Assembly: GCF_003859945.1 (NCBI RefSeq)
Contig: NZ_RQYM01000007.1
Location: forward strand, 62,001-126,000
Reading direction: 5' to 3'
Length of the DNA stretch: 64,000 bases
From: Leucobacter sp. OH1287
Lineage (GTDB): Bacteria; Actinomycetota; Actinomycetes; Actinomycetales; Microbacteriaceae
The notes beneath the pieces were generated by a model. It saw only the letters and a program-made list of their open reading frames with translations, was not told the DNA's origin and ran no database searches. How positions within the stretch are numbered: the first letter of the stretch is position 1; the number at the start of each line of letters is the position of its first letter. Made by a program: the position numbers and the translations under genes. Below are positions 5,368-17,919 of the stretch, piece by piece.

Positions 5368-6840
5368 CTAACTAGACTGCTGTGTCCGCTCCCGCATAAA
5401 CAGCGCCAACAGGAAGCCCGTGAGCGCGAGCCCTGAAGAGGTTAAGAACGCAGCACGGACGGCCGTCACCTCCGCGGCGAGCAGCTCGGCGGTGGCGGTG
5501 CCGGAGGCGGTGGCTGCCGGATCCACCCCCGCAATATCGCCGCTTGCGGCCGCGAACACGAGACTGTAAATGGTTACCGCGACGGCGGTTCCCGCGGCGC
5601 CAGCAACCTGCTGCACCGTTGAGTAGATGGCGGTGCCGTAGGAGGCGAGCTCGCTCTTTAGCGCACCAAGACCGGCGCTGAAGAGTGGCGTGAAACTGAG
5701 TCCGAGCCCGAAGCTCAGCAGCATGTTCGTCAACAGCAGCTGCCAGCCCTGAGTGTTTTCACCGACAACAAACGCGAGCAGCAGCAGCGCGCAGGCGGTT
5801 GTTAACATACCCGGGAGGAGCAGCGGCCTGGACCCGAAGCGATCCACAAGCCTGCCAACAAACAGGCCAAGCACACCCATCAGAATACCGCCCGGCAGCA
5901 GGATCAGACCGATTTGCAGCGGCTCCAACCCGAGCACGCGAACGGCGAAGATTGGCAGCAGGATAACAACAGCAAACAGCGCCATCATGTTGATGCCGAT
6001 AATCGCGAGCGCGATCCTGTAAACGCGCGACTGGAAAACCCTGAGGTCGAGCAGCGGCTGTTTGCCGAGCCGCAGCAGCCGCAACTGTCGCGCACACAGC
6101 AGCGCGATGGTGATAACACCGATCAGGATCGGCAACCACGGCGGGATCGGCTGCTGGTGGGTTGCTGCTTCGCCGAGCTGGCTGAGACCGTAAACCGTCA
6201 TACTGAAACCGAGCGCCGCTAGCACAACCGAGAGCACGTCAATGCTCACCGGTTTTGTTTCCCCGACGTTGCGCAGTAGCACAACACCGAGTATCGCAAC
6301 CACTGTTGCAATCGGCAGCACCACCAGGAACAGCGCGCGCCAGCCGAGCACACTGAGCAGCAGCCCCGAAACCGCCGGCCCGATGGCCGGCGCGAGCGAC
6401 ATAACCGCCGAGATCCGCCCCATAAAACGGCCCCGCACAGCCGCCGGGATGACGGTGACAACAACCGTTAACAGCAGCGGCGAGATAATCGCGGTGCCGA
6501 CCGCCTGCACAATTCGCCCGATCAGCAAGAAAACAAAGCTTGGCGCGAAAGCACACAGCGCGGTTCCAATGAGGAAGGTGCCGGCGGCGAAATAGTAGAG
6601 CCGCTTGGTTGTGACGCGCTGGATGAGGATGCCGGTGATCGGGATAACAACGCTCATTGTCAGCAGGAAACCGGTTGTTAGCCACTGACCTGTGACCGGT
6701 GTGATTTTCAGCTCAGCCATCAGCGTTGGCAGGGCAACACCCATCAGCGTCTCGTTCAGGAACATAATGAACGAGGTGATAACCAGCACCGTGACGGCGC
6801 GGCTGTTTTCGGCAAGCTGGCGATCCGCAGAATTATGCAT
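5368..6840 (-). CDS. MFS drug exporter, DHA2 (14-helix) family
   Basis: This is a 490-residue major facilitator with about 14 hydrophobic helices. It has the antiporter motif C form APAIGPAVSG in helix 5 and RGRFMGRISA before it, matching the DHA2 drug:proton antiporters (LmrB/EmrB-like). It would export hydrophobic compounds using the proton gradient. Substrate cannot be read from the sequence. Its start overlaps the end of the upstream ABC ATPase gene by 8 bases, so it is probably translated from the same message as the amino-acid importer, an unusual partner that might make it an amino-acid or peptide exporter (inference). Confidence 0.85.
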   Translation of the reverse strand: MHNSADRQLAENSRAVTVLVITSFIMFLNETLMGVALPTLMAELKITPVTGQWLTTGFLLTMSVVIPITGILIQRVTTKRLYYFAAGTFLIGTALCAFAPSFVFLLIGRIVQAVGTAIISPLLLTVVVTVIPAAVRGRFMGRISAVMSLAPAIGPAVSGLLLSVLGWRALFLVVLPIATVVAILGVVLLRNVGETKPVSIDVLSVVLAALGFSMTVYGLSQLGEAATHQQPIPPWLPILIGVITIALLCARQLRLLRLGKQPLLDLRVFQSRVYRIALAIIGINMMALFAVVILLPIFAVRVLGLEPLQIGLILLPGGILMGVLGLFVGRLVDRFGSRPLLLPGMLTTACALLLLAFVVGENTQGWQLLLTNMLLSFGLGLSFTPLFSAGLGALKSELASYGTAIYSTVQQVAGAAGTAVAVTIYSLVFAAASGDIAGVDPAATASGTATAELLAAEVTAVRAAFLTSSGLALTGFLLALFMRERTQQSS

Positions 6841-7570
6841 GGTGGATCCGCACTAAAAACTCCCTGGTTGCCGGGTGCTGCGGGTTGTCAAACAGCTGCT
6901 CTGGCGGCCCCTGCTCAACAACTTTACCGTCTTTCAGGTAGACGATTCGGTCGGCAACCTGCCTGGCAAAGCCCATCTCGTGGGTCGCCATCACGATTGT
7001 GATGCCCTGCGATTTTAGCTCGCGGACCAGGTCAAGCACCTCGCCAACCAGTTGCGGGTCGAGCGCGCTGGTGATCTCGTCGAGCAGCAGCAGTTCAGGG
7101 TTGGACGCAATCGCCCGCACAATCGCCACGCGCTGTTGCTGGCCGCCGGAGAGCCGGTCTGGATACTCGCCAGCTTTCTCAGCCAGCCCGATCCGCTCAA
7201 GCAGTTTCCTGCCTCGCCTCTCCGCCTCCCGCTTCTCGATGCCGTGCACGCTGTGCAGCGCGAGCGTCACGTTCTGCAGCACCGACATGTGCGGGAAGAG
7301 ATTGTAGTGCTGAAAAACCACACCGATCCGGGCACGAATCTTATCCTGACTGACGCGCGGATCCGTGATGTCCGTGTCGAGCAGGAAGATCTGCCCGTCA
7401 TCAACCTGTTCAAGCAGGTTGATGGTTTTTAGCAGCGTCGATTTGCCGGATCCGGAAGCACCGATCAGCACAACAACCTCGTGTTCTTTCACTGCGAGGT
7501 CGATGCCCTGCAGCACGGCGTTACCGCCAAAACTCTTTTTTACGCCGGTTACCCGCAATACCTCGGTCAT
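6833..7570 (-). CDS. Polar amino-acid ABC transporter ATPase (GlnQ-type)
   Basis: The 245-residue ATPase has Walker A GASGSGKST (37-45), Q-loop Gln87 (VVFQHYNLFPHM), signature LSGGQQQRV (140-148), Walker B LLLLDE (160-165) and the switch His in MATHEMGF. The DEITSALDP form instead of DEPTSALDP occurs in a subset of polar amino-acid importers. It powers uptake by the permease and binding protein encoded upstream. The start ATG overlaps the permease stop by 4 bases, which indicates translational coupling. Likely substrates are glutamate, glutamine, arginine or cystine; the sequence does not decide. Confidence 0.92.
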   Translation of the reverse strand: MTEVLRVTGVKKSFGGNAVLQGIDLAVKEHEVVVLIGASGSGKSTLLKTINLLEQVDDGQIFLLDTDITDPRVSQDKIRARIGVVFQHYNLFPHMSVLQNVTLALHSVHGIEKREAERRGRKLLERIGLAEKAGEYPDRLSGGQQQRVAIVRAIASNPELLLLDEITSALDPQLVGEVLDLVRELKSQGITIVMATHEMGFARQVADRIVYLKDGKVVEQGPPEQLFDNPQHPATREFLVRIHHA

Positions 7571-8499
7571 ACGATTCCCCCTACCTGTTCACGCTGTCGC
7601 GCCCGCCGGTTAAGCCACTCCGTCAGCCACAGGAACGGCAGCGACATCAGAATAAAGAAGATACCCGCGAGTACATACGGAGTGTAGTTGAAGGTGCTCT
7701 GGTTAATAATCTGCGCGGCGCGGATCGCGTCAACGGCGCCGAGCACAGAAATCAGGCCAACATCCTTCTGCATTGCAACAAAGTCGTTCATCAGCGCCGG
7801 TGTTACCTTCCGCACCGCCTGCGGCATCACAACTTGGCGGAGTGTTTGGCCGTAGTTGAGACCGAGCGCTCGCGCCGCTATTCGCTGCGACGGATGGACC
7901 GATTCAATGCCGGAGCGAAGCACCTCCGCAACATACGCCGAGTAGCAGATGATAATCGCGACAGCGCCCCAGAAGGCGGGATCCAAGCGCGGGGTGATTT
8001 CAAGCGCGGGAATACCGAAACCCACCAGGTAGAGTGTGAGGATAACCGGTACACCGCGCACAAGGTCGACGTAGGCGGTTGCGATAATCCGCAGCGGCAT
8101 AAAGATCGCGCCTCGCAGTGTGCGCATAACCGCCAGCAGCGAAGCAAAGATCGCAACACCGATAATCGCGAAGAACAGCACCTGCAGGTTTAGCAGCAGA
8201 CCCTCAGCAACCCTCGGCAGCGCCTTTGCGAAGTATTCGGGGTTGAAGAAGGTTTTTTGCACCTCGCTCCAACCCTTGCTGTTGATGACCAGGTAGATCA
8301 GCACAGCGGCAACAACAACGGAACTGGCGAGGCTCACCAGAATGGATTTCAGCTGCGCTTTCTTCCTGTACCTGCGCCGATCCAGCTCAACGGCGCTCAC
8401 CTGCTCGGCGGCGCTCACCTGCTCGGCGGCGCTCACCTGCTCGGCGGCGCTCACCTGCTTGGCGGCGCTATCCGCCGCTTTTTCTTTTGTTTCTGCCAC
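7567..8499 (-). CDS. Amino-acid ABC transporter permease with repeated N-terminus
   Basis: This 310-residue HisMQ-type permease has a hydrophobic core of five or more helices from about residue 55 and the EAA-type cytoplasmic loop (ARALGLNYGQTLRQVVMPQA). Its N-terminus is odd: about 48 hydrophilic residues include four copies of the hexapeptide SAAEQV (last copy varied), encoded by an 18-bp tandem repeat. That cytoplasmic tail is absent from ordinary permeases. A hairpin at 8576 separates it from the binding-protein gene. It works with the ATPase at 6833 and the lipoprotein at 8645. Confidence 0.9.
   Translation of the reverse strand: MAETKEKAADSAAKQVSAAEQVSAAEQVSAAEQVSAVELDRRRYRKKAQLKSILVSLASSVVVAAVLIYLVINSKGWSEVQKTFFNPEYFAKALPRVAEGLLLNLQVLFFAIIGVAIFASLLAVMRTLRGAIFMPLRIIATAYVDLVRGVPVILTLYLVGFGIPALEITPRLDPAFWGAVAIIICYSAYVAEVLRSGIESVHPSQRIAARALGLNYGQTLRQVVMPQAVRKVTPALMNDFVAMQKDVGLISVLGAVDAIRAAQIINQSTFNYTPYVLAGIFFILMSLPFLWLTEWLNRRARQREQVGGIV
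8391..8470. repeat. 18-bp tandem repeat, four copies, in permease gene
   Basis: The unit CGGCGCTCACCTGCTCGG repeats at 8391, 8409, 8427 and 8445 (last copy with one change), followed by a partial copy. The period is a multiple of three, so copy-number change would lengthen or shorten the permease N-terminal tail without frameshift. Confidence 0.95.
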
Positions 8500-8644: not shown

Positions 8645-9499
8645 TTACTCAACCGGCAGGACAGGTGCGTCCTTACCAGCAAGCCACTTCTCAACCAGTT
8701 TGTCGAGTGTACCGTTGTCGCGCAGCTTCTTAAGCGCCTCGTTAACCTCTGGGACAATCTTTGATCCCTTCGGCAGCACAAACGCGAACTCGTCACCGTC
8801 ATCAGCGCTGTCTGGCAGCTGACCGACGATCACACCGTCACCCTCAAGCTGTGCGTCACGCACGTAGAAAGCACCCGGCAGGTCGGTTACCATCGCGTCA
8901 ATGTTGCCGGCCTTCAGCGCAGCAACCACGTCAGCAACGTTGTTAAACACCAGCGGATCCTTGTCAGGGTTGATCTCACGCTTAACGTGATCGAGTGAGG
9001 TTGTGCCCGATGCAACACCGATCTGTGCGCTCTTCAGGTCTTTCACTGACTTGGCGTTTGCCGCATCAGTTCCCTTAGCGGCAACAACAGCCTGGGTGGT
9101 CTTGTAGTAGGGCTCTGAGAAGTCAACAGCCTGCTTACGCTCCTCGGTGATCGAGAACTGCTGAATGTTCAAATCCCACTTCTTCTCACCTGGAGCGATA
9201 GAACCGTCGAATGACTCACGCACCCAGACAACATCGCTGGCGCCGTAACCCATCTCATTCGCAACAGCAAAAGCAACCGCTGCCTCAAAGCCCTCGCCCT
9301 CCTCAGGCTCATCGTTGTAAACCCAAGGCTCGTAGGCAGGCTCGCTGGTTGCGATTGTCAGTTTCCCTGCGGTGATTGTGTTTGAGGTCTCTTCTGTTTT
9401 TGAGCTGTCAGATTCAGCGCTATTTGAGCATCCCGCGAGCACGAGTGTTGCCGCAGCCGCAGCCGCAAACACCGCGCTTAAACGTGAGAATTTTGCCAT
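8645..9499 (-). CDS. Amino-acid ABC transporter substrate-binding lipoprotein
   Basis: The 284-residue protein has a lipoprotein signal with lipobox LAGC at about residues 21-24, a Ser/Glu-rich linker, and a solute-binding fold type 3 domain (SBP_bac_3) including the YEPWVYND, GFEAAVAFAVANEMGY and QFSITEERKQAVDFSEPYY segments. It delivers polar amino acids to the permease encoded downstream. I chose the ATG at 9499 over an upstream start because GAAGGG precedes it and the signal peptide then begins MAKFSRLSAVFAA. A promoter-like TATTAT and an inverted repeat lie just upstream (9533-9563). Confidence 0.92.
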   Translation of the reverse strand: MAKFSRLSAVFAAAAAATLVLAGCSNSAESDSSKTEETSNTITAGKLTIATSEPAYEPWVYNDEPEEGEGFEAAVAFAVANEMGYGASDVVWVRESFDGSIAPGEKKWDLNIQQFSITEERKQAVDFSEPYYKTTQAVVAAKGTDAANAKSVKDLKSAQIGVASGTTSLDHVKREINPDKDPLVFNNVADVVAALKAGNIDAMVTDLPGAFYVRDAQLEGDGVIVGQLPDSADDGDEFAFVLPKGSKIVPEVNEALKKLRDNGTLDKLVEKWLAGKDAPVLPVE

Positions 9500-9532
9500 T
9501 ATTATGCCCTTCGTATGGGTTTCAACAAGAAC

Positions 9533-9563
9533 TGTTGCAAAACGCAACAACTATTCAATAATA
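9533..9563 (-). promoter_or_regulatory. Inverted repeat and -10 upstream of amino-acid importer
   Basis: TGTTGC (9533-9538) and GCAACA (9544-9549) form a perfect inverted repeat with a five-base spacer. A minus-strand TATTAT (9558-9563) places a likely transcription start beside it, so a repressor bound there would block the binding-protein gene. The regulator is unknown. Confidence 0.4.
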
Positions 9564-9601: not shown

Positions 9602-10882
9602 TCAGTAACATACTTGACCCGCGATTACGGTCTGTCGGCAGCGACCAGCTCCGTCCTCAACGAGGCACGCGAGGGCATCACGCGGATCCGCGCTCGGCAC
9701 CTCGAAGAAAGCGAGATCCGCCGCAGCACCCACCGCCAACTGGCCGATCCTGCCAAGACCCACCTGCAGACCCAGCGCCGTTGCACCGCCGAGTGTTGCG
9801 GCGTTAAACAGTTTCTGGTGCAGGTCAGTTTCGGTGTATCCCTGTCGAACCGCGATGCGGTATGCTGCGGCAACATCGGCGAGCATGTCGAGGGACGGTG
9901 AGGAGGACAGCGAGTCGGTTCCGACCGCGATCAGATTCCCCTCCCGCAGATAGGCGGAAACCGGTGCCTCATCCAGCCCAATAACCGCGTTTGATCGGGG
10001 GCAAAGCGCAACAGCGCTGCCCCTCGCGCGGAGGATTGCGCGGTCCTTCTCGTTGGCGTAAACACCGTGCGCGATGTGACACTCGGGCCCCAGCACGCCA
10101 AGGTGGTCAACGAACTGGATTGACGAGATCCCGTAACCAACCGGCAGGTGGTTGAAGCTCTCTGGCGCGTGATCCTCCCAGCCGTCAGTGTGCTCGTCAA
10201 GGCTCTGCTCCTCCTCCGATTCGGCGAGGTGAATGTGCAGGCGCAGGCCACGCTCGCGCGCAATATCGGGGATGTCGAGCAGCTGCTCGGTGTTGAGCGA
10301 GTAGGGGGCGTGCGGTGAAACACCGGCGCCCGGTTCTGCAGGCAGCTGTGCGAGCCGCTCCAGCAGTTCGTCACGGCGCTTTGCACCCCAGTCGGACTGG
10401 CCGTAAATCTCCCAGTAGGCGATACCCTTCAAGCCTGCGTCGTGCAGCGCGCTAACCGCGGCGGCGTCGGTTACAACATCGGCTGCTGCCGTCACACCGG
10501 CCGCTTTTGACAGCTTAGCGCCGTCAGCTGCGGCCGCAAACCAGTCGTGGCCGCCCGCGTCATACACCCGGTCAAAGGCGCGACCCCAGTCGTGAAAACC
10601 GTTAAACTGCCCCTGCCCAAGCTCAGCCATGTGCGTGTACTGCAGGTGCGTGTGCGCGTTCACAAGTCCCGGCGTTAGCGCACCAGCGAAGTGGGTTTCG
10701 GTGTATTTAATCCCCGCGTCTTGCAGGTGCCCGAGCAGCCACTTGCGGTCGCCACAGTGCAGGATCTTATCCCCCCGCACCGCAACCGCGCCGTCTTTTA
10801 GTCTCGGACTCGTCACCGGCAGCACAACATCGGCGCTATAAACCTGAACCGCGCTCGTTACTTGATTATCCTCGTTACCCAC
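9602..10882 (-). CDS. Amidohydrolase of the MTA/SAH deaminase (MtaD/TrzA) family
   Basis: This 426-residue metal-dependent hydrolase belongs to the ATZ/TRZ cytosine-deaminase-like group that includes 5'-methylthioadenosine/S-adenosylhomocysteine deaminase. Metal and catalytic residues are visible: His77 and His79 (NAHTHL), His218 and Glu221 (HIHLAES), His272 (AHGVYA), Asp323 (VGTDS), plus PHAPYS at 190-195. It should deaminate an adenine-type base to hypoxanthine. It starts 11 bases after the SAH-hydrolase homologue, so both are very likely made together, which favours SAH or its breakdown nucleosides as substrate. Aminofutalosine or guanine deaminase are alternatives that sequence alone does not exclude. 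Confidence 0.8.
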   Translation of the reverse strand: MGNEDNQVTSAVQVYSADVVLPVTSPRLKDGAVAVRGDKILHCGDRKWLLGHLQDAGIKYTETHFAGALTPGLVNAHTHLQYTHMAELGQGQFNGFHDWGRAFDRVYDAGGHDWFAAAADGAKLSKAAGVTAAADVVTDAAAVSALHDAGLKGIAYWEIYGQSDWGAKRRDELLERLAQLPAEPGAGVSPHAPYSLNTEQLLDIPDIARERGLRLHIHLAESEEEQSLDEHTDGWEDHAPESFNHLPVGYGISSIQFVDHLGVLGPECHIAHGVYANEKDRAILRARGSAVALCPRSNAVIGLDEAPVSAYLREGNLIAVGTDSLSSSPSLDMLADVAAAYRIAVRQGYTETDLHQKLFNAATLGGATALGLQVGLGRIGQLAVGAAADLAFFEVPSADPRDALACLVEDGAGRCRQTVIAGQVCY

Positions 10883-10893
10883 AGCAAACTATT

Positions 10894-12771
10894 CTAGTTT
10901 GTTTTTTTGTACCGGTGAACCCGCCAATGCTGCGCTGCTCCCCCGACACGCTCGGTCGCAGGCAGCTGCGGCAGACTGTAGCCGTAAACCCTCAGCGCCA
11001 TACTCGCAACCCGCTTCACCGCCGCGTCATTCACGGGGTAAACATCCGGCGGAAGGCTTTCACCGCCCGCGCCTTTCTTAACGGTCTCCGTCAGCTGGCT
11101 GAGCGCGGCAACCTGGGTTGCAAAACTCAAATCCATAACCTCTAACGGGTTTCCCTCCCCCGCTGTGTAGTTGATGCCGCCGCCGTCCGCGAGCAGGCGC
11201 AGCCCCGGGGCAACCGGCTGCGCGATCTCGCCGTCGATACCGCCCGCAACGCTCAGAAACGCACCCGGGCGCAGCAGCCCCTGATCGGCATGGCCCACCG
11301 TGTTCCACACCCCGGTTGCGCTGATCACCAGGTCTGCCCGGGGCAGTAGCTGGGCGGATCCGCCCACCGCAAACCCGTCAACAACCGCGCTCAGCGCCCG
11401 CACCGGGTCGGGTTCGATAACGCTGACGGTCAGCCCGAAACTGCGCGCCGCCCTCGCGCACCCCTGCCCAACCGGGCCGTAGCCGTAAACCACCGCCTGC
11501 CGAAGCTCCCGCACCGCGTCACAGCCGTGACTCTGAGCGATCTGGTCAAGCGTTGCAATCACGCAGCTCTCACCGGTTCCCACCCGGTTGTCGAACAGGG
11601 TTTTGGTTGCCGCATCATTCACCGCAATAACCGGCATCCTAAGCTCTCCGGCAGATGCCATCTCATTGAGCGGGCGGATCCCGCTGGTCGTCTCCTCAGC
11701 GGCTCCCCTGAGCGTCTGCAACGCGGCCTCAGCCTCGGTGTGCGCGAGCCGGATCAGGTGCGCACCGTCATCAACCAGCCAGTGCGGCTGCCAGGCGAGC
11801 GCCGCCGCAGCGTTATCGGCGTCAAGCTCGGGATCCGCCAGCTGCGCGTTATCGGTTGCCGCAAACACGTAAACACCCGCGTCCGCGAGCGCCGCCGCAA
11901 TCCCCGGATCGGTTTCAGACGCCGACGCAAAAACCGCGATCTTGGCACCTGTGTCACGCAGTTTCAGGGCGAGCGCCGCCGTTTTCGGTTCGAGCACTAG
12001 ACTAACCAGCACCCTGTCGCCGCTAATGGATCCCCGTTCGGCAAGCTCGCTAATCAGCCCCGCCGTCACGGGCATCCCCCGCGCCGCCCAGGCGATACGC
12101 GCTGCCGGGTCGGCGCTTCGCCACTGGGGGTTAGAGGATAGCAGCAGCGCGATGTTGCGGTTGTCTGCGGGGCTTCCGCCGCTGCCCTGCCCGCCAGCAA
12201 CCGGCAGGCTGAACTCTAGAACACCCGCTCGCTGCTGCTTCTGGGCGAGGAAGTCGCACAGCTCGGGAGCAAGCCGGTCGCGCAGCTCGGGAGCAAGCCG
12301 GTCGCGCAGCTCGGGAATAAACTGGTCGCCCAGGTCAGATTCGAGGCAGTCGCGCGTTTCCGCAGACGGCGCGAACACGCTGCCCACGGCGGTCACTCCG
12401 ACCAGCAGGGGCGGCAGCTGCGCGGGCGATGCGCCGAGCGCGGCGAGCGCCGCCGGGTCTTTTAGCAGTCGCAAAAGCGTTTGCTCGTCCGCGAATATAA
12501 AGTCGGGTGCCGCACCATCCCGGTGCGCACTGAGGTCTCCGTGGGTGGCGAGGGTGACGTGCGCGCCAAGGCCGCGCAGCGGCTGCGCGAGCGCCAAAAC
12601 CGCCTCAGTACCAGCAGCCCCGGCACCAGCAGCCTCAGCGCAAGCAACTCCACTGCCAGCATCAGCTCCCGCCTCGGCACCGACACTATCACCGCCGATG
12701 ACCAGCAGGGTGCGTGATCCCGCGAGCATTCGGTTTCCGGCTTTTGCGGCGGCGATTAAAACCTCAAACAA
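10894..12771 (-). CDS. Divergent S-adenosylhomocysteine hydrolase homologue
   Basis: The C-terminal two thirds of this 625-residue protein match SAH hydrolase in order: DDG (334-336), AEETTSG (358-364), VNDAATK (384-390), FDN (393-395), the NAD fold GYGPVGQG (430-437) and NYTAGEGNP (534-542). The catalytic Glu359, Lys390 and Asp394 equivalents are kept. By my hand alignment the adenine/ribose contacts His55, Thr57, Gln59 and His353 of the human enzyme read Arg, Met, Val and Asn here, and Cys195 reads Thr. The first 220 residues are Ala-rich, poorly conserved and carry a 24-bp tandem repeat. It is co-transcribed with an SAH/MTA-type deaminase, so it may cleave a deaminated substrate such as S-inosylhomocysteine (inference). 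Confidence 0.75.
   Translation of the reverse strand: MFEVLIAAAKAGNRMLAGSRTLLVIGGDSVGAEAGADAGSGVACAEAAGAGAAGTEAVLALAQPLRGLGAHVTLATHGDLSAHRDGAAPDFIFADEQTLLRLLKDPAALAALGASPAQLPPLLVGVTAVGSVFAPSAETRDCLESDLGDQFIPELRDRLAPELRDRLAPELCDFLAQKQQRAGVLEFSLPVAGGQGSGGSPADNRNIALLLSSNPQWRSADPAARIAWAARGMPVTAGLISELAERGSISGDRVLVSLVLEPKTAALALKLRDTGAKIAVFASASETDPGIAAALADAGVYVFAATDNAQLADPELDADNAAAALAWQPHWLVDDGAHLIRLAHTEAEAALQTLRGAAEETTSGIRPLNEMASAGELRMPVIAVNDAATKTLFDNRVGTGESCVIATLDQIAQSHGCDAVRELRQAVVYGYGPVGQGCARAARSFGLTVSVIEPDPVRALSAVVDGFAVGGSAQLLPRADLVISATGVWNTVGHADQGLLRPGAFLSVAGGIDGEIAQPVAPGLRLLADGGGINYTAGEGNPLEVMDLSFATQVAALSQLTETVKKGAGGESLPPDVYPVNDAAVKRVASMALRVYGYSLPQLPATERVGGAAQHWRVHRYKKTN
12256..12327. repeat. 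24-bp tandem repeat, three copies, in SAH-hydrolase homologue
   Basis: Three 24-base units start at 12256, 12280 and 12304. The first two differ at one base, the third at four. They encode ELRDRLAP-type octapeptides (about residues 154-171) in the non-conserved N-terminal part of the protein. The period keeps the reading frame. Confidence 0.9.
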
Positions 12772-12856: not shown

Positions 12857-13513
12857 CTAGTCCTTGCTCTGTCTGCGCCCCCAAAATTTCTTTGTGGGGG
12901 TTTCGGTTTTGGGGCCGCGCTGCAGTTCGGCGAGGTCGTTAGCGATCAGGTCCTGGATCCGAGAATCCCGCTCCCGCTGATACTCCTCGCTGTTGCCGCC
13001 CGCGTAGTAGGGGTGGCTGGCTTTGTTCTTCAGTGACTCGGCGATCTCCTGCCAGGCGAGCTCGGTTGCTCGCGTCGCGGTTTTCACAACGTACTCGTCG
13101 TCCTCGATCCACCGCTCAAGCGCCGCCGAAACCCCCTCGTAAACCTCCTGCCGGTGTTTCAGGGTGTCATTGTCGCCGGTGCCGTAATCAGACTCTGACC
13201 ACTCGCTGCGGCCGGTGCGGCGGATCTCGGTGCGCATCCGCTCAATGTGTTCGGCGTCTGCCTCCCGCTCTGCGGACAGGTCAGCGAGCGCGTCACGCAC
13301 TTTCTGTTTAATCGCTTCCTCGTCATAGTTGACGTCGTGCGCGAGCGCGTTCATAATAATCTCGTTTTTAACGCTCATCCGCACGGCAACGTCAGCAACC
13401 AGCAGGCCCTGTTCAACAATCTCGGCGACGGGTGCTAACACTCGGGGTTGGCGTCTGCGGGCAGGGTTCTGACGCGCTGGTTGCCCACCAAAAAGACGCT
13501 TTAACCAACCCAT
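12857..13513 (-). CDS. Conserved hypothetical protein, soluble and helix-rich
   Basis: This 218-residue protein has no signal peptide or membrane helix. After a basic, Pro/Arg-rich start (residues 4-26) it is acidic and mostly predicted helical, with coiled-coil-like stretches around 70-110 and 125-170, and ends in a basic KKFWGRRQ tail. I recognise no catalytic motif and assign no function. It lies between a terminator after metS (13543) and the SAH-hydrolase homologue, same strand, 85 bases upstream of the latter, so it may be the first gene of that transcript. Confidence 0.7.
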   Translation of the reverse strand: MGWLKRLFGGQPARQNPARRRQPRVLAPVAEIVEQGLLVADVAVRMSVKNEIIMNALAHDVNYDEEAIKQKVRDALADLSAEREADAEHIERMRTEIRRTGRSEWSESDYGTGDNDTLKHRQEVYEGVSAALERWIEDDEYVVKTATRATELAWQEIAESLKNKASHPYYAGGNSEEYQRERDSRIQDLIANDLAELQRGPKTETPTKKFWGRRQSKD

Positions 13514-16576: not shown

Positions 16577-16591
16577 TATGGTGCTTAATCA
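16577..16591 (+). promoter_or_regulatory. Candidate leaderless promoter for DUF3097 gene
   Basis: TATGGT at 16577-16582 ends eight bases before the ATG at 16591, with TTTGCC 16 bases upstream as a weak -35. No ribosome site precedes the ATG. Transcription starting at or next to the A of ATG would give a leaderless message, common in actinobacteria. Confidence 0.4.
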
Positions 16592-17421
16592 TGTGGGATG
16601 ACAGATACGGCGAAGATGTGCTCGCTAACAACAAGCCGCGGCGTGCACCGCTCGAACGGCGAGCGGTAACGCTCGCGCGCGGCCAAATAATCGAGCACTC
16701 CGAAACCGAGTTCTGCGGCGCCGTGGTTGGTGCGGGCCAGGGGTTTGTACACCTGGAGGACTGGCGCGGCACCGTCCGCCAGTTCCGGCTTGACGACTTT
16801 TTTATGATCGAGGGTGAGTCGGTGACCCTGCAGCTGCCGAAGGCGGCAAAGCGCCCAGCACGCACCGCTTCCGGATCCTTCGCCGCCCCCGCCTCTCGCG
16901 CCCGCGTCGCCCGAGCGAGCCGCATTTTTGTTGAGGGCCGCCACGACGCCGAACTGGTTGAGCGCATCTGGGGTGACGACCTTCGCGAGGTTGGCGTTGT
17001 TGTTGAGCTGCTTGAGGGGGCGGATCATCTCGCCGCCGTACTCCGCGACTTCCAGCCCGGCCCTTCCCGCCGCGCCGGTGTGCTGCTCGATCACCTGGTG
17101 ACCGGCAGTAAAGAGTCTCGGCTCGCCGCCGCCGCAGTCACCCCCGATATGGCTGATTTTGTGCGGATCACCGGCCACCCGTTCATTGATATTTGGCAGG
17201 CGGTAAAACCCGAGCGACTGGGAATGGCGGCGTGGCCTGAGATCCCCTACGGAACCGACTGGAAGGTTGGGATCTGTAAGCACCTCGGGCTGCCGCACGC
17301 AGAGCAGGCGGATATCGCGGACGCTTTCGCCCGGATCCTGTCGCGGGTTAGGGACTACCGGGATCTGGATCCGCGCCTGGTCGGCCCGGTTGAGATGCTG
17401 ATCGATTTTGTAACAGCCTAG
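16591..17421 (+). CDS. DUF3097 family protein
   Basis: The 276-residue cytoplasmic protein matches the actinobacterial DUF3097 family: an N-terminal segment beginning MWDDRYGEDVLANNKPRR, a beta-rich part (about 28-85), then a conserved stretch with FVEGRHDAELVERIWGDDLR (around 110-130), VLLDHLV and HPFIDIWQAVKP. The second half resembles a TOPRIM-like fold in its EGRHDAELV pattern, which is inference. Function is unknown. An Ala/Arg-rich linker (about 88-106) joins the halves. The last codons lie in a 20-base sequence repeated 60 bases downstream. Confidence 0.85.
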   Translation: MWDDRYGEDVLANNKPRRAPLERRAVTLARGQIIEHSETEFCGAVVGAGQGFVHLEDWRGTVRQFRLDDFFMIEGESVTLQLPKAAKRPARTASGSFAAPASRARVARASRIFVEGRHDAELVERIWGDDLREVGVVVELLEGADHLAAVLRDFQPGPSRRAGVLLDHLVTGSKESRLAAAAVTPDMADFVRITGHPFIDIWQAVKPERLGMAAWPEIPYGTDWKVGICKHLGLPHAEQADIADAFARILSRVRDYRDLDPRLVGPVEMLIDFVTA

Positions 17422-17481
17422 CTGCCGTCGGCCACACCGCAGAGTCTGCTCTGCCGCGGTGTCGATTTTGTAACAGCCTAG
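17402..17481. repeat. 20-bp direct repeat, 60 bp apart, at DUF3097 gene end
   Basis: TCGATTTTGTAACAGCCTAG occurs at 17402-17421 and again at 17462-17481. The first copy codes for the last residues and stop of the DUF3097 protein. The second is non-coding and lies just before the next gene. A GCAGAG/CTCTGC hairpin (17439-17454) sits between them. It looks like a remnant of a tandem duplication. Confidence 0.9.
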
Positions 17482-17550
17482 TTTGCTAGAGTTATTGCGC
17501 CGCGAGGGATCCCGCGGTGACCACGTCGATCGGGTTGGAGCGAGAACAGA

Positions 17551-17919
17551 ATGAACCGCTACAGTGAGCTGAAACCGCTGCCGTTCGCGCGCCTCGGATA
17601 CTGGTACGCAACCGCTGTCGGCTTCACCTGGGGTCTGCTGCTCAGCACCGGTGAGGTGAAACGGCACGGCAAACTGTGGGTGTTTAGCGGGATGCCGCGC
17701 TGGGCGTTCGGCCGCGGCGGCAGCTGCATCGGCGCGTGCTATCTCACCCGCGTCAACATCAGCGACAGGGTTTTGCAGCACGAGGATGTTCACCGTCAAC
17801 AGTGGCGGCATTATGGGCTGCTGTTGCCGTTCCTCTATTTTCGGGCGGGGGCGGATCCGCTAAAAAACCGCTTCGAGGTTGAGGCGGGTCTCGCAGACGG
17901 CGGCTACACACGCGACTAG
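17551..17919 (+). CDS. Small protein with HExxH-like motif, unknown
   Basis: This 122-residue protein carries LQHEDVHRQQW at about residues 73-83, giving the zinc-metallopeptidase pattern HExxH, followed by YGLLLPFLYF and FEVEAGLADGG, where the later Glu could be a third ligand. A hydrophobic segment occurs at about 20-34. The short length and motif recall minimal metallopeptidase-like proteins, but enzymatic activity is inference. The start ATG is preceded by GGAGCGAGAAC. It lies between the DUF3097 gene and an oppositely oriented gene with a candidate iron box; no operon partner is evident. Confidence 0.6.
   Translation: MNRYSELKPLPFARLGYWYATAVGFTWGLLLSTGEVKRHGKLWVFSGMPRWAFGRGGSCIGACYLTRVNISDRVLQHEDVHRQQWRHYGLLLPFLYFRAGADPLKNRFEVEAGLADGGYTRD

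Follow-up and report, generated by a model that had tools for sequence, protein, structure and literature searches.

Why would an actinobacterium carry a divergent member of the S-adenosylhomocysteine (SAH) hydrolase family directly beside an amidohydrolase of the nucleoside deaminase type? The question is raised by a window of 64,000 nucleotides from Leucobacter sp. OH1287, that is, the whole stretch of DNA analysed here. Two minus-strand open reading frames in the window, which we call AHCL and DEAM, lie 11 bases apart (Table 1), exactly as a sequence-only reading of the stretch had reported. According to that reading, the two enzymes possibly serve to recycle SAH, deaminating it and then hydrolysing S-inosylhomocysteine (SIH) as methanogens do, or act on another deaminated nucleoside thioether. 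Our analysis retains the pair and the deaminated substrate, and suggests a different use for them.

Table 1. Genes of the AHCL-DEAM locus and their positions in the window
Feature	Position	Strand	Characteristics
AHCL	10894..12771	minus	divergent SAH-hydrolase-family protein, 625 aa, TTG start
DEAM	9602..10882	minus	amidohydrolase, 426 aa, GTG start; HxH, HxxE, H and D of purine/nucleoside deaminases
Solute-binding lipoprotein, polar amino acid ABC importer (SBP family 3)	8645..9550	minus	PF00497, 93.3 bits
ABC importer permease	7567..8499	minus	PF00528, TIGR01726; order conserved in the cassette
ABC importer ATPase	6833..7570	minus	PF00005, GlnQ/TcyN-like; about 62-79% identical across cassettes
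Unknown 218-residue protein	12857..13513	minus	upstream of AHCL; only in Canibacter and most Leucobacter

The active site of AHCL

The family assignment of AHCL stands. The protein matches PF05221 (AdoHcyase, 73.9 bits) and PF00670 (AdoHcyase_NAD, 56.9 bits), an AdoHcyase fold with NAD-binding domain that places it with AHCY, and it falls below the curated AHCY equivalog cut-offs (TIGR00936, 226.5 versus 497.6; NF004005, 271.2 versus 275). The SAH-hydrolase fold spans residues ~218-620 and is preceded by an extension of ~200 residues with a Rossmann-like domain, which is encoded separately in some relatives, namely Cryobacterium and apparently Nonomuraea, where the Rossmann-like matches are weak. 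At one locus the domain is a separate gene with a 4-base overlap and weak Rossmann/NAD-binding matches (L144:7402-7956). The closest structures to the predicted AHCL model (mean pLDDT 79.9) are the SAH hydrolases of Thermotoga (Z 43.9), Methanococcus (43.5) and Pyrococcus (43.5), with the human enzymes scoring lower (38.6); the Thermotoga, Methanococcus and Pyrococcus enzymes prefer SIH. In a 56-sequence tree the AHCL clade has 100/100 support and is separated from the canonical and archaeal-type SAH hydrolases as well as from other actinobacterial relatives of the family; with midpoint rooting, the alphaproteobacterial sequences form its first branch.

What has been kept of the catalytic machinery? 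To map the residues, AHCL was aligned by phmmer and MAFFT with the enzymes of human, Thermotoga, Pyrococcus and Methanococcus, the last three sequences being taken from PDB alignments. Human E156, K186 and D190 correspond to E360, K390 and D394 of AHCL, and the T157, N191, D131 and N346 equivalents are likewise present, so that the 2'-OH/3'-OH and C4' residues of AHCY (E156, T157, K186, D190, D131) are all in place. The earlier assignment of the redox residues was right for Lys390 and Asp394 and one off for Glu359, which is the equivalent of E155. In the mammalian enzyme Glu156/Asp190 are assigned to the 2'-OH and Thr157/Lys186 to the 3'-OH, Asp131 acts at C4', His55 is the base for water addition at C5' and His301 stabilises the intermediate (Kusakabe et al. 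2015, PMC4647836). The candidate proton abstractor at C4' in AHCL is D335.

The base-binding region is where AHCL departs from canonical enzymes. Here the alignments place the segment LVLEPKTA, in which V259, E261 and K263 stand for human H55, T57 and residue 59; the replacement by Arg, Met and Val that had been read by hand came from a misalignment onto an upstream ARGMPV, and residue 59 of the mammalian enzyme is in any case Glu and not Gln (mouse Glu59, PMC4647836). Where AHCY has its adenine motif HxTxQ(E), AHCL has VLEPK, and it possesses the Glu and Lys of the HxExK motif of SIH hydrolases, both invariant within AHCL, but not the catalytic His. HxExK enzymes prefer SIH, the Glu bonding N1 and the Lys O6 of hypoxanthine (Koeppl et al. 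2024, PMC10978960). The combination E57 plus K59 is thus a published SIH fingerprint and supports the idea of a deaminated substrate by a route other than the one first proposed. The exchange of H353 for Asn (N541) had been correctly identified; it may matter less, because His353 contacts the base through main-chain atoms (Kusakabe et al. 2015, PMC4647836). Two further features had been overlooked: human H301 is G511 in AHCL, and all members of the clade, and they alone, have an Arg (R341) at position 137.

Both catalytic histidines are missing from every aligned AHCL. E57, K59, D131, K186 and D190 do not vary across ~100 relatives, nor do the Gly at 301 and the Asn at 353, and position 55 holds V, I, L, T or F. 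E156 is nearly always kept (Gln in a single member, L195), and STQD, the motif on the homocysteine side, is replaced, mostly by ETD. Judged from these alignments, the pattern is one in which the hypoxanthine side, the redox side and the C4' base are retained and the C5'/water side is gone.

The deaminase, the importer and the spread of the cassette

DEAM matches PF01979 (Amidohydro_1, 118 bits). Its metal and catalytic residues H77, H79, H218, E221, H272 and D323 are invariant in 18 relatives and have the arrangement of metal ligands and HxxE/H/D seen in purine-type amidohydrolase deaminases. The nearest structures to its model are the MTA/adenosine deaminases 4gbd (Z 39.0) and 4f0s (38.5) and the aminofutalosine deaminase 7lkk (37.6), and guanine deaminases score nearly as well (Z about 36). 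DEAM shares the amidohydrolase fold and metal/catalytic residues with DadD, MTA/SAH and aminofutalosine deaminases, but its identity to the solved MTA/adenosine and aminofutalosine enzymes is ~18-21% in structural alignment and it lies far under the curated cut-offs (NF012037, 67.6 versus 779; NF005557, 103.9 versus 522). As no equivalog cut-off is reached, deamination of an adenine nucleoside by DEAM is graded as no more than likely.

Next to the pair, binding protein, permease and ATPase match the models of a polar amino acid ABC importer (SBP_bac_3). The binding protein keeps an Arg, and in most cassettes an Asp, which in GlnBP-type proteins hold an alpha-amino acid; its pocket has QQ in place of AG. 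The upstream 218-residue protein has zero matches in Pfam or NCBIfam and possibly lies outside the function of the cassette. Elsewhere in the window, a 408-residue protein (16585-17811) is likewise without Pfam and NCBIfam matches. A proposed link to MetPS methionine import did not hold beyond close relatives, since only the window and Canibacter zhoujuaniae have the Na+ symporter next to the cassette.

Scanning of named genomes yielded 385 relatives, and the neighbourhood was inspected at the best 80 loci. DEAM lies beside AHCL in 80/80, which bears out the pairing as a conserved one, and an importer is present at 77 of these best 80: 72 of the amino-acid ABC type, three ECF and two sugar-type ABC. 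The other three are a Schaalia locus with no importer in the stretch and two short contigs. The ECF importers, with a riboflavin-type S component, replace the amino-acid type in Nonomuraea and Cryobacterium, and the sugar-type ABC importer does so in Aestuariivirga/Rhizobiales. As importers are exchanged around a constant enzyme pair, both enzymes would act on the imported compound. A DUF985 cupin is encoded at 59 of the best 80 loci. Its gene (DUF985/Cupin_5; L077:6083-6520 and equivalents) sits between deaminase and importer; Canibacter and most Leucobacter lack it. According to a table in PMC11594714, crystal 3LZZ shows a relative of DUF985 with bound GDP, which would fit an oxopurine ligand and is only suggestive.

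Carriers of the cassette include Canibacter, Leucobacter, Curtobacterium, Demequina, Bifidobacterium, Nonomuraea and Alphaproteobacteria. Class-wide sampling of 395 genomes identified just three carriers (G000, G520, G469), so the cassette is sporadic. Class-wide HMM matches of 250-350 bits, found in ~100 genomes, were not AHCL in any of the 12 checked, of which 11 are HxTxE SAH hydrolases that retain both histidines and the twelfth, L191, is divergent; plasmid matches in Paenibacillus and Rubrobacter were rejected, the cassette genes being absent nearby. The alphaproteobacterial form is complete on plasmid NZ_CP084754.1 (L200:2273-12329; a 'Roseateles' record flagged UNVERIFIED_ORG), in the order divergent LacI regulator, two 'adenosylhomocysteinases', binding protein, two permeases, amidohydrolase, ATPase and nucleoside hydrolase. 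One of the two 'adenosylhomocysteinases' is an HxExK enzyme with both histidines and the other is AHCL, and the importer is of the sugar-type ABC kind. Downstream of this set lies a DNA alkylation-repair gene cluster (Ada, AlkB). An inosine-uridine nucleoside hydrolase occurs in or beside the cassette in Alphaproteobacteria, and one Microbacteriaceae genome has AHCL and deaminase with such a hydrolase nearby and a sugar-type binding protein.

A proposed scavenging role for the pair

What might such a cassette do? We tentatively interpret AHCL and DEAM as the catabolic half of a scavenging cassette for a tailed 5'-substituted adenosine, which would be deaminated and then cleaved, a reading that in our judgement comes close to being probable. 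The importer, here of the amino-acid ABC type, would take up a 5'-substituted adenosine with an alpha-amino-acid tail, of which SAH is the simplest. DEAM would convert it to its hypoxanthine form by removing the 6-amino group, and AHCL would hold the hypoxanthine via E261 and K263 while its bound NAD+ oxidises the 3'-OH (K390, D394, E360), D335 takes the C4' proton and the 5' substituent is expelled; from SAH this would be homocysteine, available to MetE or for other purposes. A nucleoside hydrolase or phosphorylase would take over the nucleoside product. The grounds for this reading are the constancy of the AHCL-DEAM pair, the invariant E57 and K59, the retained redox and C4' residues and the SIH-preferring structural neighbours of AHCL; the nearness of the DEAM model to MTA/adenosine and aminofutalosine deaminases and the nucleoside hydrolases near some cassettes; and the Arg/Asp of the binding protein, a MetE that could use homocysteine and a LuxS with an MTAN-like neighbour that would serve for the cell's own SAH. 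The residues, the conservation of the cassette, the importer swaps and the independent SAH routes of many carriers are read from sequence; the identity of the substrate, deamination ahead of cleavage and a C5' chemistry that dispenses with the H55/H301 pair are inferred, as is every functional step. Several observations count against it: the ECF importers of some cassettes, with their riboflavin-type S component, and the sugar-type ones of others give no hint of an amino acid, DEAM is below the curated cut-offs with guanine deaminases near, and a SAM/SAH-type riboswitch was not found (in 21 sources nothing in Rfam scored above the gathering threshold).

The main doubt concerns the chemistry: ordinary hydrolysis to homocysteine by AHCL is uncertain, because H55, which activates the water, and H301 are lost and STQD is replaced. 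The loss of both histidines points to stand-in residues, or to a different leaving group or reaction. It is a distinct possibility that the same logic of import, deamination and NAD-dependent attack is applied to a cargo other than SAH, such as 5'-deoxyadenosine, MTA, SAM or an unknown amino-acid nucleoside, with AHCL carrying out an elimination, or some other 3'-keto-dependent reaction in which water is not activated at C5'. Such a cargo would be consistent with the selective loss of the residues that handle the 5' group and water alongside retention of those for base, 3'-OH and C4', with the altered homocysteine side and the AHCL-specific R341, with the variety of importers and with the second, HxExK enzyme carrying both histidines in the alphaproteobacterial set. 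It accords less well with the common importer, which is of the alpha-amino-acid type with Arg/Asp kept, and SAH is itself a widespread amino-acid adenosine. AHCL might even, with some doubt on our part, found a catalytically new branch within the SAH-hydrolase fold and work in a dedicated uptake pathway for an as yet unrecognised extracellular adenosine derivative. An enzyme of this sort would use NAD to oxidise a deaminated nucleoside at 3' and would deprotonate it at C4', all without water-activating histidines, and could be a lyase, or a hydrolase whose leaving group needs no protonation.

SAH disposal in the host genomes and known relatives

Could the pair simply recycle the cell's own SAH, as first proposed? 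The window genome (1.9 Mb, 99% complete), whose same-genus relatives are Canibacter species (L063-L065, identical to the stretches L091, L095 and L096), contains no other SAH-hydrolase family protein (PF05221), which speaks for that view. The same genome encodes MetE and a LuxS adjoining an MTAN-like PNP_UDP_1 gene, however, so AHCL and DEAM are ruled out as its sole route of SAH disposal. LuxS is also found in G150, G028 and two bifidobacterial genomes, and canonical AHCY accompanies AHCL in nine Demequina-type genomes and two other Microbacteriaceae (G156, G168), Demequina and Frondihabitans among the carriers of an ordinary AHCY; most other AHCL carriers examined have one or the other. Two Canibacter genomes (G149, G151) have neither, and there the cassette could also serve the cell's own SAH. 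Recycling is hence not the main job of a pair that is sporadic and tied to an importer, a position that scavenging fits better, and we consider methanogen-type recycling of endogenous SAH improbable; the deaminating part of the earlier proposal, with its enzyme pair and hypoxanthine-type pocket (E57 plus K59), survives. A non-catalytic, regulatory AHCL, as the two absent histidines might suggest, is highly improbable given an NAD motif, K186, D190, N191, D131 and nearly always E156 kept in ~100 sequences from several lineages, and actinobacterial cassettes that contain no further SAH-hydrolase relative.

How does the scavenging cassette relate to known systems? With the euryarchaeal and Thermotoga HxExK SIH hydrolases (PMC10978960; PDB 7r37, 7r38, 7r3a, 3x2e) AHCL shares the fold, the NAD/ribose residues, E57, K59 and a partner deaminase in the same genome; it differs in the motif His (V/I/L/T/F), H301 (Gly), H353 (Asn) and the altered STQD, and in having an extra N-terminal domain, an importer operon and a clade of its own (100/100). 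With canonical Actinomycetota AHCY (HxTxQ, TIGR00936) it shares the family and the redox chemistry residues, whereas base motif, H55, H301, H353 and C-terminus differ, and both coexist in several genomes. Methanocaldococcus is known to metabolise SAH by deamination, the same has been proposed for Thermotoga, and a SAH deaminase and SIH have been reported from Streptomyces, in work cited in PMC10978960. By that cited precedent the deaminating concept is not new even in Actinomycetota. In the searchable literature, which leaves subscription journals mostly outside, we found no description of the AHCL clade, its missing histidines, the importer cassette or SAH import.

SAH hydrolase is among the most conserved enzymes, and conserved loss of two catalytic histidines throughout a widespread clade, with the redox centre kept, is unexpected. 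The cassette suggests that bacteria of plant, soil, sea, mouth and gut scavenge adenosine-type methylation by-products via a dedicated importer and by way of deamination, a route known until now mainly from archaea and Thermotoga. AHCL relatives can be labelled plain 'adenosylhomocysteinase', as in the NZ_CP084754.1 record, a label that would lead reconstructions of the methyl cycle astray. A second divergent actinobacterial SAH-hydrolase group (L081:7809-9020, L082:8126-9430, L197:7983-9158, L198:8392-9600; clade 100/100) has an HLEPK motif, H301 kept, D131 changed to Asn, D190 to Glu and GNS replacing GHP, and in L081 and L082 a divergent inosine-uridine nucleoside hydrolase gene adjoins it.
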